Assembly (NCBI GenBank): GCA_024275235.1 | Contig: JAJRZN010000240.1 | Location: 1 to 33,899 of the forward strand | Direction: 5' to 3' | Length of the DNA stretch: 33,899 nt | DNA from: Deltaproteobacteria bacterium | Lineage (GTDB): Bacteria > Desulfobacterota > Desulfobulbia > Desulfobulbales > VMSU01 | Shown here: in pieces, positions 7,837 to 26,559 of the stretch | Position numbering within the stretch: the stretch's first letter is position 1 | How the letters are laid out: every line of letters starts with the position of its first letter | The notes under the pieces: model-generated | Seen by the model: the letters and a program-made list of their open reading frames with translations, nothing else | What the model was told of the DNA's origin: nothing | Database searches by the model: none | Position numbers and translations under genes: made by a program

Positions 7837-9489
7837 ATGGCTATTGCGAATACCCCCTTAATCGGCATTACCATGGGCTGCCCGGTGGGGATCGGGCCGG
7901 AGGTGGCTCTTAAATATCTCCGGCAGGCCGCCGATGAAGGCCCCGAAGCGGTAATAATCGGCGATTGTGAGGTGTTGATTTCCACCGCCCGCCTCCTTGA
8001 TCTGCCCGCCGCAGTCTGCAGCTGGCAGCCCGGTCAACCCCTGCGGCCGGGTTCGATAAATGTTTACCAGGTGGCGGATGTTGATGCCGATGCCGTCCTG
8101 AACCACCGGCAACTGCGCTATGGTTGTCCCAACCGGCAGACTGGTCTGGCCATGGCCGCCTATATCAAGGCGGCGGCCCGCCTCCTGCAGGAAGGACGTC
8201 TAACCGCCATGGCCACCTGTCCCATTACCAAAGCCGCTCTCCATGAGGCGGGTTACGATTATCCCGGCCATACCGAGATGCTGGCCCATCTCTTTAAAAC
8301 AGAACAATTTGCCATGATGATGGCCGGAAAATCATTAAAGGTGACCCTGACCACCATTCATCAAAGTCTGGCCTCGGTGGCCATGTCTTTGACTACTGAG
8401 GCAATTGTTGAGTTAATTGATTTGAGCGCTCGCTCATTACGCCGTGATTTTGCCGTCCAGAACCCCAGACTGGCAGTGGCGGCCCTCAATCCTCATGCCG
8501 GGGAAGGCGGTATGTTCGGCGATGAGGAAGAGCGGATAATTGCCCCGGCCATTGCCCGGGCCCAGGCCATGGGCTGGCAGGTGGAGGGCCCCTTTCCCCC
8601 TGACACTATATTTAACAAAGCCGCGGCCGGAGATTTTGATCTGGTGGTCTGCATGTATCACGATCAGGGACTCATTCCCTTTAAACTCCTGCATTTTGCC
8701 GATGGAGTTAATGTTACCATCGGACTGCCCCATGTCCGCACCTCGGTGGACCACGGTACGGCTTATGATATAGCCGGTAAGGGGCTGGCCAGTCCCGTCA
8801 GCCTTAAGGCGGCGGTGGAGATGGCGGCCATGATCGCCGAAAATCGTCGGCAATACGGGGCGGAGCGCTCTCTGCCCTCTTCTCCCGTCCGTCAGGGGCG
8901 TCTAATTGCCTTTGAGGGTATTGACGGCAGCGGTAAATCAACTCAGATAGAATTACTGGCCGAGACCCTGCGGGGGGAAGGTTTTGAGGTTCTGCTGACC
9001 CGTGAGCCCACCGATTCGTCCTACGGCCGGCGGATAAGAGAACTTTACAGTCACCGGGAGGCGGTCAGCCATGAAGAGGAGCTGGAACTTTTTATTGCCG
9101 ATCGGCGCCAGCATGTGGCGGAGGTGATAAATCCGGCCCTTGAAAGTGGTAAAATTGTACTCACCGACCGTTATTTTCTTTCCACTGCCGCCTATCAAGG
9201 GGCGAACGGCCTGGATCCTGACGATATTCTGCGCCGCAACGATTTTGCCCCGTCTCCTGATCTGGCTTTGATTCTTGAGGTGCCGCCCAGTCTGTCGGTT
9301 GCCCGTATTCGCCAGGGGCGGGGGGAGACCCCCAATGATTTTGAGCAGGAGGATTATCTGACTAAGGTGGCGGCAGTCTTTGCGGAGCTTCGCGGTGATT
9401 ATATCAGGCGTTTGCCTGGAACCGGAGACCTTAACGCGGTGCGCCTGAGAATCTGGCAGGCGGTTAAGGGGATTTTGCCCTCCGCTTAG
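7837..9489 (+). CDS. Fusion of 4-hydroxythreonine-4-phosphate dehydrogenase (PdxA) and thymidylate kinase (Tmk)
   Basis: N-terminal ~340 aa PdxA (GITMGCPVGIGPEVALKYL, GHTEMLAHLF, TTIHQSL, ALNPHAGEGGMFGDEE, CMYHDQGLIPFKLL, VRTSVDHGTAYDIAGKG); C-terminal ~210 aa Tmk (RLIAFEGIDGSGKSTQIELL, LTREPTDSSYGRRIREL, FIADRRQHV, VLTDRYFLSTAAYQGA). One uninterrupted frame, junction near nt 8890. Confidence 0.95.
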   Translation: MAIANTPLIGITMGCPVGIGPEVALKYLRQAADEGPEAVIIGDCEVLISTARLLDLPAAVCSWQPGQPLRPGSINVYQVADVDADAVLNHRQLRYGCPNRQTGLAMAAYIKAAARLLQEGRLTAMATCPITKAALHEAGYDYPGHTEMLAHLFKTEQFAMMMAGKSLKVTLTTIHQSLASVAMSLTTEAIVELIDLSARSLRRDFAVQNPRLAVAALNPHAGEGGMFGDEEERIIAPAIARAQAMGWQVEGPFPPDTIFNKAAAGDFDLVVCMYHDQGLIPFKLLHFADGVNVTIGLPHVRTSVDHGTAYDIAGKGLASPVSLKAAVEMAAMIAENRRQYGAERSLPSSPVRQGRLIAFEGIDGSGKSTQIELLAETLRGEGFEVLLTREPTDSSYGRRIRELYSHREAVSHEEELELFIADRRQHVAEVINPALESGKIVLTDRYFLSTAAYQGANGLDPDDILRRNDFAPSPDLALILEVPPSLSVARIRQGRGETPNDFEQEDYLTKVAAVFAELRGDYIRRLPGTGDLNAVRLRIWQAVKGILPSA

Positions 9490-22171: not shown

Positions 22172-23767
22172 TTACTGCTTTCTGATCTCCACCCCATTCC
22201 TGGTCAGATACTCCTTGACCTCGCCAATCGGCACCTCCCGGCGATGGAATATACCGGCGGCCAGGGCGGCCTCAGCCCTGGTGCCGGCAAAGACCTCGGC
22301 AAAATGGGCCGGACATCCCGCGCCGCTGGAGGCGATAACCGGGATACCGACATTATCACGTACCAGGTTAATAAGCTCCAGGTCAAAGCCAATATTAGTG
22401 CCGTCCCGGTCGATACAATTCAGTAATATCTCACCGGCTCCCAGCTTCTCGCAGATCTGAGCCAGGGTCAGGGCGTCTAAGTCACACCCCTCACGACCGC
22501 CCTTCACCGTGCATTGATACCAGCAGTATTCCTCGCCATTGGGGCCGGGCTGAGTAGTCTTTATGACGTGGCGACCCACTGCCTCGGTCTCATTCTTGAC
22601 ATATATTCGTCTCGGATCGACGGAGATGACCACCGCCTGGCTGCCATAACGTGCTGAAATCTGGCTGATGGCGTTATCGTGACGCCCCTGGCGGCGGTAT
22701 TTTTCTGCCGTGTATACGGCATCGCTGCCGATGGAGATTTTGTCGGCCCCGGAACGAAAATATTCTGAGGCCACATCGAGGGCCGAGTAATCACGGCCCT
22801 GGGAATCGGTAAAGTTGCGGATGCCGCCGCCGATGGTCAGCGGTACGAAGACCTGCTCAGAGGTGCGCTTTAAGACCTCTAACATAGGTTGGTCCTTCAG
22901 GGGAAAATCCCGGAACCCGGTGATGTTCAAAAAGGTTATTTCATCGGCCCCTTCATTAAAATAACGGCGGGCGAGTTCCACTGGTTTGCCAAGATTCCTC
23001 ACCTCGCCTTTATCTCGGACATCATATTGGTCGCCTTTGGTGACAATCAGGTCACCGTTGTCATTACTGCGGACATCAAGGCAGGCGATAATTCGTTTGG
23101 CCAGCCTGGTTTCACTGTCGGCGGCTGTGGATTTAGTGTTCAACTCCAGCACCTTGCCGGTGGATAGAAAATTTTGGAGAATTTTGAGTCCGGCGGCTCC
23201 GCTTTTTTCGGGGTGGAATTGAGTGGCGCAGACATTACCCCGGTTTACGGAGCTGATAAACTCCTCTCCGTAACTCGTGGTGGTGAGAATCCAGTCACGG
23301 TTAGCCTCTGTCTCCATGGCCCGATAGGAGTGGACAAAATAGAGCTTTTCGCGCTCGTAATTATCAAAAATAACCGAATCTTTGCGGCGTTGAATACCGT
23401 TCCAGCCGATATGGGGAATGGCAAGCGGGGCAAGACCAAGGTCAAAACGGCCCACGGCGCCGGGGATAATACCCAGCCCCTCGATACCGGGCGACTCCTC
23501 ACTGCCGGAAAAAAGGGTATGGAGCCCGAGGCAGATACCGAGGAAGGGACGATCGGCCAACAGATAGTCCCGCAGGGCATCTATATAACCTAATTCCCGG
23601 AGACGGATCATGGCGCTGCCAAAACTTCCCACTCCGGGAAAAATTAACTTTTCAGCCTGGTTAATATCTCTGGCCGAGGTTGCGTCTTTAATCTCAAAAC
23701 CTAATTTTTTAATGGCGTTACGGACACTTCTGACGTTACCGGCACCATAGTCAAGCAGGGTTATCAT
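22172..23767 (-). CDS. hisHF: Bifunctional imidazole glycerol phosphate synthase, HisH-HisF fusion (eukaryotic HIS7-like architecture)
   Basis: N-terminal glutaminase (MITLLDYGAGNVRSVRNAIKKLG, PFLGICLGLHTLF, ATQFHPEKSG) followed in frame by HisF cyclase (LAKRIIACLDV, ADEITFLNITGFRD, FVPLTIGGGI, FRSGADKISIGSDAVY, AVVISVDPRRIYV, GAGEILLNCIDRDGTNIGFDLELI, IPVIASSGAG). Confidence 0.96.
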   Translation of the reverse strand: MITLLDYGAGNVRSVRNAIKKLGFEIKDATSARDINQAEKLIFPGVGSFGSAMIRLRELGYIDALRDYLLADRPFLGICLGLHTLFSGSEESPGIEGLGIIPGAVGRFDLGLAPLAIPHIGWNGIQRRKDSVIFDNYEREKLYFVHSYRAMETEANRDWILTTTSYGEEFISSVNRGNVCATQFHPEKSGAAGLKILQNFLSTGKVLELNTKSTAADSETRLAKRIIACLDVRSNDNGDLIVTKGDQYDVRDKGEVRNLGKPVELARRYFNEGADEITFLNITGFRDFPLKDQPMLEVLKRTSEQVFVPLTIGGGIRNFTDSQGRDYSALDVASEYFRSGADKISIGSDAVYTAEKYRRQGRHDNAISQISARYGSQAVVISVDPRRIYVKNETEAVGRHVIKTTQPGPNGEEYCWYQCTVKGGREGCDLDALTLAQICEKLGAGEILLNCIDRDGTNIGFDLELINLVRDNVGIPVIASSGAGCPAHFAEVFAGTRAEAALAAGIFHRREVPIGEVKEYLTRNGVEIRKQ

Positions 23768-23883: not shown

Positions 23884-24603
23884 TTAAGGTAACTGCTCTC
23901 GTTTATGGCGCAGACGGTTGAGGATGGAATCAATACTCTCAAAGACCTCATCCTCTTCCTTTTGTACAAGATTATAAAAATCGCATTGCATGCAGTCTTT
24001 TATCTTGCAGGCAAAAGAACCCTGCACGCAGCCGCCGCAGAGAGTGCCGCTGACGGCCCAGCATACCCGGCCGCCATTTTTGCCGCCGTGCATATCTGAG
24101 GCGGCGGATTCCAGCGCTGCCTGGCATACCCCCTGGCTGCCGACGCGAAGGCCGTTGGGCTCCCGGCCGCAGTGCATGTATTCCCAGCAGTTCAGCCGCG
24201 GCAGGTCGTAGCCCAGAGGGCGCAGGACTTCCGCAAGCCGTTGGTGGGTGATAGGCTTGGACAGCAGATGATCCTCGCTTTTGTTTTTGGCATATCTGGG
24301 CGGCATTTTTCCGCCCCCCAAAATAATAGTATGTTCGGCTGAACCGTTGTGCATGGCGAGAGCCAGGGTTCTGATGGCCAGGTTGTTTTTTTCTTCACTG
24401 GCGTTGGGCGGGGGAAAGACGATGAATACTAAATCAAAGGAGCTGCTGTTATCTAAGGCGTGGCTGATGGCGTCATGGCCCTGTTCATAGTCCATGAAGA
24501 TGCTGATGTTGCGGCTTAAGGGGCTTAGAAGTACCATGAGGGAGGAGGCCTCCACTGTTGATTCATCAATAATTATAATCTTGGGCTCATCCTTGCTGCT
24601 CAT
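23884..24603 (-). CDS. Degenerate response-regulator receiver domain joined to a cysteine-rich two-CW domain
   Basis: N-terminal KIIIIDES...LLSKPIT receiver-like; C-terminal LNCWEYMHCGREP...GVCQAA...GGKNGGRVCWAVSGTLCGGCVQGSFACKIKDCMQCDFYNLVQKEE matches the two-CW pattern. Confidence 0.75.
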   Translation of the reverse strand: MSSKDEPKIIIIDESTVEASSLMVLLSPLSRNISIFMDYEQGHDAISHALDNSSSFDLVFIVFPPPNASEEKNNLAIRTLALAMHNGSAEHTIILGGGKMPPRYAKNKSEDHLLSKPITHQRLAEVLRPLGYDLPRLNCWEYMHCGREPNGLRVGSQGVCQAALESAASDMHGGKNGGRVCWAVSGTLCGGCVQGSFACKIKDCMQCDFYNLVQKEEDEVFESIDSILNRLRHKREQLP

Positions 24604-24834: not shown

Positions 24835-26559
24835 ATGCTCCTTGCTATTATTGTTATCTTATGGAATATTAACGGGGTTATACTTTGCTTATTAAGCGGC
24901 GCCTTGTCAATGGGCGCTTTTTATTTTTTTATATGGAGATGTATGGAAAAGGTTGATAGCGAAAAGCTCATTATTGAGCTTAATTTTAGAAATGAAGTCA
25001 TAAATGAACGGTTAGAGGGTAATGAAGTCAGCAGCGAAAAAATGCTTGAACTTCTGCCTGAAACCGTAATAGATAAACGTACCTTGGAAACCATTGAGAT
25101 TCACAAGCTCTTTAAGTCCTTAGATTATACTAAGACCTTTGTCGGGGCCGCTCATCTCTGCCATTCTCTCATTAACCCGCCGGAATCGATTGAGCTGGTG
25201 TACGCCAAGCAGGATGCCTTCTGTGAGTTGGCGGCCAATGTCAATCTGCAAAAGGCCATTAAGGAGTTTCTTGTCGGTTTTCATGAGGGTGAGGCGGATA
25301 TATTTACGTTTCTGAATGCCCATATTCACCCCATGACGGCTTATGGTGATTATAAAAAAGCCATGCGGGCTATTGAGAAGATGATGACTCTCGTTAAGAA
25401 GATCCCGCAGCCGGAGACGGTTTATCTGGATTCCATGGTTAAGACCATTAAGAGCTTTAACCGTTCTATTACCAGAGAGCTGGTGGAAGGCCCGGTTTAT
25501 CGTACCCTGAGCGGTCTTAAAGCAAGAAGTGACAAGACTATTTTTAATCCGGGATTACGCTTTTACCCCACCCGCCTGGGGATCGGCTTCTGGGGTCCGG
25601 GCCTTTCCGCCCTCTTTTTTCTGGCCGGTTGGCTTATTCCATTTATGAATCCCCCCAAAGCCCTGGTTCTCTGTCTGCTCTTCACCATGATGACGGCAGG
25701 TGGTGGTCTTTACGGTCTCCTGATTAAGCCCATCATAGATTATGAAACCGCTATTTTGCCGGTTCGTGAGATGCTTCTGGAATCTAATCGTTTCGGCTCT
25801 GCTCTTGAGGCGGTGGCGGCCATTGATGAGTTATTGTCCTTTGTCCGCTTTGCGGAAAATATGCCGCATCCAACGACCATCCCGGAGATTACTAACGAGA
25901 GCAGTCATTTCTTTGTGGCCCGCGGTCTGCGTAATCCCATCAGTGCCAGGGACGAGCCAGGTTTTGTGCCCAATGATGTGAATCTGACTAATGCCCGGAT
26001 GACCTTTATCACCGGCCCCAACAGCGGCGGTAAAACCACCTATTGCAAGACTATAGTCCAGAATCAGCTTCTGGCCCAGATCGGGGCACCCGTAGTGGCC
26101 AGTGCCGCCATGATTAATATGGCTGATCATATAACTTATCAGGCCCCCTCCTTTGACAGTCTTGCCGACAATGAAGGCCGCTTTGGTACCGAGTTGAAGG
26201 TGACAAGGGATATCTTTTATTCGGTAACTCCCCGCAGTCTCGCTATTTTAGATGAAATAGCCGAAGGTACCACCACCAATGAAAAAATAACTCTGTCGGT
26301 GGATATCATGAATGGCTTTCTCGCCATTGGTAATAATACCATGCTGGTGACCCACAGTCACGAGTTGGTGGATAGATTCTGCGAGCAGGGACAGGGGCAG
26401 TATCTGCATGTGGAATTTAAGGATGATAAACCTACCCATAAAATGGTTCCGGGAATATCGCGAGACAGTCATGCCCACCGGGTGGCGGAAAAAATTGGAT
26501 TTTCGCCGCTTGATATTGAGAATTATCTGCGGGAAAAGGGTTATAAAACCGAGGGATAA
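24835..26559 (+). CDS. Membrane-anchored MutS-like ATPase (MutS domain V family, no mismatch-recognition domain)
   Basis: Walker A FITGPNSGGKTTYCKTI; SFDSLADNEGRFGTELK; Walker B SLAILDEIAEGTTTNE; MLVTHSHEL; hydrophobic helices at the N-terminus (MLLAIIVILWNINGVILCLLSGALSMGAFYFFIW) and mid-protein (GPGLSALFFLAGWLIPFMN...LVLCLLFTMMTAGGGLYGLL). Confidence 0.88.
   Translation: MLLAIIVILWNINGVILCLLSGALSMGAFYFFIWRCMEKVDSEKLIIELNFRNEVINERLEGNEVSSEKMLELLPETVIDKRTLETIEIHKLFKSLDYTKTFVGAAHLCHSLINPPESIELVYAKQDAFCELAANVNLQKAIKEFLVGFHEGEADIFTFLNAHIHPMTAYGDYKKAMRAIEKMMTLVKKIPQPETVYLDSMVKTIKSFNRSITRELVEGPVYRTLSGLKARSDKTIFNPGLRFYPTRLGIGFWGPGLSALFFLAGWLIPFMNPPKALVLCLLFTMMTAGGGLYGLLIKPIIDYETAILPVREMLLESNRFGSALEAVAAIDELLSFVRFAENMPHPTTIPEITNESSHFFVARGLRNPISARDEPGFVPNDVNLTNARMTFITGPNSGGKTTYCKTIVQNQLLAQIGAPVVASAAMINMADHITYQAPSFDSLADNEGRFGTELKVTRDIFYSVTPRSLAILDEIAEGTTTNEKITLSVDIMNGFLAIGNNTMLVTHSHELVDRFCEQGQGQYLHVEFKDDKPTHKMVPGISRDSHAHRVAEKIGFSPLDIENYLREKGYKTEG

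Follow-up and report, generated by a model that had tools for sequence, protein, structure and literature searches.

A HIS7-type HisH-HisF fusion in a Desulfobulbales genome and a eukaryote-type HisA in the same order

The window, that is, the whole stretch of 33,899 nucleotides analysed here, carries hisHF, in which HisH is followed by HisF in one open frame, as determined using NCBIfam profiles (Table 1). A 531-aa frame with this arrangement had been proposed in a first-pass annotation made from the letters alone; its coordinates are exact, but it is encoded on the minus strand; read on the plus strand, the interval is full of stops. The motifs quoted in that annotation are all present letter for letter in the protein. 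The host is apparently a bacterium of the sulfate-reducer type, belonging to Desulfobulbales in Desulfobacterota, and its genome assembly comprises 2.79 Mb in 269 contigs (93% complete, 2.8% contamination). Profile searching of the whole genome placed the HisH and HisF matches at the same site and revealed no other hisH or hisF over the cut-off; the separate genes that were to be looked for elsewhere are thus absent from the assembly, and hisHF is its sole hisH and hisF.

Table 1. Position of hisHF, its parts and further frames in the window
Feature	Position	Strand	Basis
hisHF, bifunctional imidazole glycerol phosphate synthase, HIS7 type, 531 aa	22172..23767	-	open frame; HisH and HisF families; yeast HIS7 match
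HisH glutaminase domain, residues 2-202	23162..23764	-	TIGR01855, 202 bits (cut-off 105); triad C79, H185, E187
HisF cyclase domain, residues 222-529, with HIS7-type inserts	22181..23104	-	TIGR00735, 328 bits (cut-off 295); D231, D384
Longest HIS7-type insert block, residues about 395-410 (EAVGRHVIKTTQPGPN)	22538..22585	-	column occupancy in alignment
Two-CW-domain protein	23884..24603	-	
MutS-like ATPase	24835..26559	+	domains III and V only recognised; below all curated NCBIfam cut-offs
PdxA (residues 9-333) and dTMP kinase (residues 352-518) in one 550-aa frame	7837..9489	+	
TrmD (residues 1-225) with an extra C-terminal domain of ~200 aa	4890..6191	+	no NCBIfam match for the extra domain at the threshold used

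The isolation of hisHF from other histidine genes, noted at first reading, was borne out: no his genes were seen near it within the window, and hisB lies on another contig. On one side are proB, proA, nadD and a cation-efflux gene, with which hisHF is convergent, and on the other side are genes for a two-CW-domain protein and a MutS-like ATPase. The two-CW gene lies just upstream on the same strand, and hisHF starts 116 bases after it. The whole neighbourhood was also found in two other metagenome-assembled genomes (MAGs; L002 and L003), the HisHFs of which share 93-94% protein identity with the window HisHF. The two-CW gene stands beside hisHF only in these two, and the neighbourhood is absent in the remaining relatives, which suggests that hisHF moves about over longer time scales. 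Elsewhere in the window, two other frames were noted (Table 1), one of which unites PdxA and dTMP kinase, two unrelated functions.

In imidazole glycerol phosphate (IGP) synthase, which carries out step five of histidine biosynthesis, C79, H185 and E187 form the glutaminase triad, and D231 and D384 are the cyclase aspartates. All five residues are invariant in an alignment of 12 sequences (the window HisHF, yeast HIS7 and ten further HisHFs of prokaryotes), in agreement with the earlier reading of both active sites as intact. By analogy with the family, the N-terminal glutaminase would use C79-H185-E187 to free ammonia from glutamine, the ammonia would be channelled into the (beta/alpha)8 barrel, and D231 and D384 would there drive the formation of imidazole glycerol phosphate and AICAR from PRFAR. 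Through the fusion, the HisH and HisF parts would be fixed in their docking and in a ratio of 1:1. The window hisHF probably encodes an intact enzyme of a known type, ordinary for its group.

The similarity of the window HisHF to eukaryotic HIS7 was evaluated against all solved structures, among which the yeast enzyme was the only eukaryotic HIS7 (PDB search). Yeast HIS7 (1jvn) matched over the full length with 585 bits, versus 183 bits at most for separate HisFs. The HisF half alone scored 433 bits against yeast HIS7 and 186 bits against the next solved relative; the corresponding values for the HisH half were 148 bits and, for Thermus, 129 bits. Judged by these scores, the affinity to HIS7 appears strong in the HisF half and modest in the HisH half. 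The window HisHF resembles yeast HIS7 (1jvn, 1ox4-1ox6) in domain order, catalytic residues, barrel inserts and ~54% full-length identity, and differs in a shorter linker, in the absence of the yeast insert of ~6 residues in the HisH domain and in its bacterial host. The separate enzymes of Thermotoga maritima (1gpw) and Thermus thermophilus (1ka9) have the same reaction, folds and catalytic residues, but they consist of two chains, with a HisF of ~253 aa that lacks the inserts, and are far less similar to the window HisHF.

Six insert blocks (residues 237-241, 249-253, 288-290, 322-332, 356-365 and 395-410 of HisHF) are filled in yeast and in >90% of the fused HisFs, versus <10% of the separate HisFs (n=33, of which 30 belong to the same phylum); within the last block, one column lying between blocks departs from this pattern. 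The HIS7-type features of the HisF half, which the first-pass annotation had listed, were thereby recovered, and the window HisHF is truly of the HIS7 type, more than just a fusion. Insertions common to the bifunctional enzymes only were already described by Fani et al. 2007 (PMC1963479).

Phylogenetic trees were constructed for each half and for the concatenated halves, with separate HisH sequences drawn mostly from the same phylum and the eukaryotes represented by one HIS7 (yeast) on a long branch. A branch separated the fused bacterial sequences together with yeast from the other sequences in the tree of the HisF half (support 100/100), as well as in those of the HisH half (100/99.9) and the concatenated halves (100/100). 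The window HisHF shares a common origin with yeast HIS7, and the affinity of both halves to eukaryotic HIS7 that had been proposed from the letters was corroborated by inserts and trees alike; common descent with eukaryotic HIS7 in general is indicated with a single eukaryote sampled. In the HisF tree, yeast was placed inside the bacterial HisHFs (87/84), and the alternative with yeast outside all bacterial HisHFs was not rejected (p-AU 0.17). In the concatenated tree, yeast stood close to the base, alongside six bacterial lineages, and the other 46 bacterial rows were nested (95/94); the basal place of yeast was without support in the HisH and concatenated trees. The window HisHF belonged to a 27-row bacterial clade (100/99) inside the 46-row clade of the concatenated tree. 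Because it is nested among bacterial HisHFs, recent acquisition of hisHF by this organism from a eukaryote is excluded, and because its clade occupies a derived position among the bacterial sequences, the window lineage is likewise excluded as the donor of HIS7. The first-pass annotation had offered a donor lineage or a transfer from a eukaryote as the two explanations; the old link between bacteria and eukaryotes stood, and the versions naming this lineage or this organism fell. In the same tree, an Archaeoglobus copy (L014; 98/83) and one HisHF from the phylum of a Nitrospirae MAG (100/95) grouped with the window HisHF, a pattern consistent with an outward transfer from sulfate reducers.

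The bacterial fusion proved to have many close homologues and a routine, published architecture, which the first-pass annotation had named as a result that would speak against its proposal. A pattern scan of GTDB contigs yielded 108 HisHF relatives, mostly in Desulfobulbales and Desulfobacterales, with further, sporadic copies in Archaeoglobales, Thiodictyon and one Nitrospirae MAG. The fusion was present in 65 of 395 genomes of an even sample of the phylum, distributed over many families, and in all 16 sampled genomes of the window's order. The best-scoring HisFs of the 395-genome sample are ordinary separate frames, and most relatives keep separate genes. In the phyla of the Nitrospirae MAG (L042) and the Thiodictyon MAG (L054), the fusion was detected in 2 of 326 and 1 of 399 genomes, respectively. 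Some of the odd host assignments may be binning errors; the contig of L027 is only 3.8 kb long. Identity among bacterial HisHFs goes down to about 60%. No match was obtained in the E. coli genomes searched for HisHF. The possibility that hisHF is a plasmid or phage gene was also considered and rejected, since the plasmid and phage matches are HisH and HisF proteins of ~33-42% identity that are not of the HIS7 type. Five viral contigs of 23-231 kb (L183-L187) carry remote HisH/HisF relatives of 36-39% identity, either of the ordinary type or sugar-modification paralogues.

The fused enzyme was reported by Fani et al. 2007 from three sequences in two species of deltaproteobacteria (PMC1963479). 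The window HisHF is a further member of this published family: it shares the fused organization and the kind of insertions with those enzymes and comes from another species of the same bacterial group. HisHF was also reported in two Archaeoglobales, about 70% identical to the sulfate reducers, in a 2024 study (PMC11237513); these copies differ in their archaeal host, and the eukaryote-type HisA described below was not over the cut-off in those genomes.

The enzyme of the preceding step, HisA, was also investigated. No hisA of either kind was found in the window genome by profile search, the absence of which would break the histidine pathway unless the gene lies in an assembly gap. In the window's order, 53 of 58 genomes scored above the cut-off for the eukaryote-type HisA (TIGR02129), versus none of 14 controls. 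The eukaryote-type hisA is carried, in a conserved context that includes fusA, by the same-genus genome G433, whose coordinates match those of the L003 genome, and by that of the close relative L002. Biological loss of hisA was rejected on this ground, and an assembly gap is most likely. The context consists of an EF-G-like gene, a gene for a GKT-motif protein, hisA, an HDOD-like gene and an MBL-like gene (neighbour names read from the sequence), and its conservation among bacteria suggests that the eukaryote-type hisA is a long resident there. The eukaryote-type HisA was noted in relatives (L195, L197, L206 and L208-L210).

The only solved relatives of the eukaryote-type HisA at E <1e-8 are 9fcf (287 bits), which we take to be a plant HisA enzyme, and 2agk (222 bits), presumably yeast HIS6. 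In the HisA tree, 9fcf nests among the bacterial rows and yeast lies outside, and a single eukaryotic clade was not rejected (p-AU 0.22); 9fcf is 54-57% identical to the best bacterial HisA versus 44% to yeast. Across the phylum sample, the eukaryote-type hisA occurs in 23 of 65 genomes with HisHF versus 10 of the 330 genomes that lack it (Fisher p 6e-13, confounded by kinship), and the difference persists when the window's order is set aside (9 of 49 versus 10 of 330; p 2e-4, with the same confounding). The two genes are not neighbours. The occurrence of the eukaryote-type HisA in the order, alongside the HIS7-type HisHF, is new here.

We consider it highly probable, at roughly 93%, that hisHF encodes a working IGP synthase of the HIS7 type, that its fusion was one event shared with eukaryotic HIS7, and that an ancient bacteria-eukaryote transfer and a later spread produced the present distribution. 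The bacterial HisHFs and eukaryotic HIS7 would go back to this one fusion and be joined by the transfer, after which hisHF would have spread within Desulfobacterota and reached some members of Archaeoglobi, Nitrospirota and Chromatiaceae by transfer; the single fusion and the single transfer are suggested by the inserts and by trees that include a single eukaryote. Independent fusions of ordinary hisH and hisF in bacteria and eukaryotes, alike by convergence, might be expected from the 1:1 binding of HisH and HisF, and hisIE is thought to have fused several times (PMC1963479). However, the barrel inserts occupy matching positions away from the point of fusion, and the trees of both halves contain a single supported split from the separate genes; the common inserts, together with the trees of both halves and of the joined halves, make convergent fusion very unlikely. 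An artefact, in which a contig of eukaryotic origin was binned with bacterial ones or the assembly is chimeric, might be suspected from the number of contigs and the contamination estimate, but hisHF lies among bacterial genes and its neighbourhood recurs in the independent assemblies L002 and L003, a synteny by which contamination and chimerism were ruled out; the chance of either is negligible.

Within the shared-origin reading, the direction of transfer is a more tentative matter. The fusion may have arisen in a Desulfobacterota-like bacterium, from which an early eukaryote, or else fungal and plant ancestors, gained hisHF and a HIS6-type hisA, a scenario to which we give somewhat less than an even chance. 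It is favoured by the depth of the bacterial HisHFs and their spread over many families, by the place of yeast near the base of the concatenated tree with most bacterial rows nested, by the position of 9fcf inside the bacterial rows and its greater identity to them than to yeast, by the co-occurrence of hisHF with the eukaryote-type hisA, and by the reported link of the plant HisIE enzyme to Deltaproteobacteria (PMC8102479). It is weakened by the two topologies that the AU tests did not reject, yeast outside the bacterial HisHFs and a single eukaryotic HisA clade, by the long branches in play and by a co-occurrence that is confounded by kinship and involves genes that are not neighbours. The reverse, an ancient passage of the eukaryotic fusion to the ancestor of part of Desulfobacterota, is in line with the published tree, in which the three bacterial HisHFs clustered with plants and transfer from plants to bacteria was proposed (Fani et al. 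2007, PMC1963479), and with a patchy distribution in a phylum where most relatives have separate genes. Nevertheless, that study covered three sequences from two species, and the fusion is now known from every sampled genome of one order and from many families; the bacterial diversity demands a very old event, identity to yeast is only ~54%, and a recent transfer is excluded. Passage from eukaryotes to bacteria is unlikely in our assessment, and the wide distribution of the bacterial HisHFs and the nested place of the window HisHF among them argue against the recent plant-to-bacterium transfer proposed in 2007.

The striking part of these results is evolutionary, namely, the pair of a HIS6-type HisA and a HIS7-type HisHF in Desulfobacterota. 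In the open literature, to which our search was confined, no paper joining HisHF, the eukaryote-type HisA and the plant HisIE was found, and work on the evolution of HISN3 or HISN4 added nothing more. The size and depth of the bacterial HisHF family call the plant-to-bacterium picture of 2007 into question, and the HIS6-type HisA, acting one step before HisHF, shares its unusual phylogenetic pattern, thereby making the origin of HIS6 and HIS7 testable with existing genomes. That eukaryotic HIS6 (HisA) and HIS7 (HisHF), which catalyse consecutive steps, both came from a Desulfobacterota-like donor, of a kind in which both still co-occur, is conceivable, with a chance of about one in three. If true, the double descent of HIS6 and HIS7 would mean that bacteria made a specific contribution to the metabolism of early eukaryotes.
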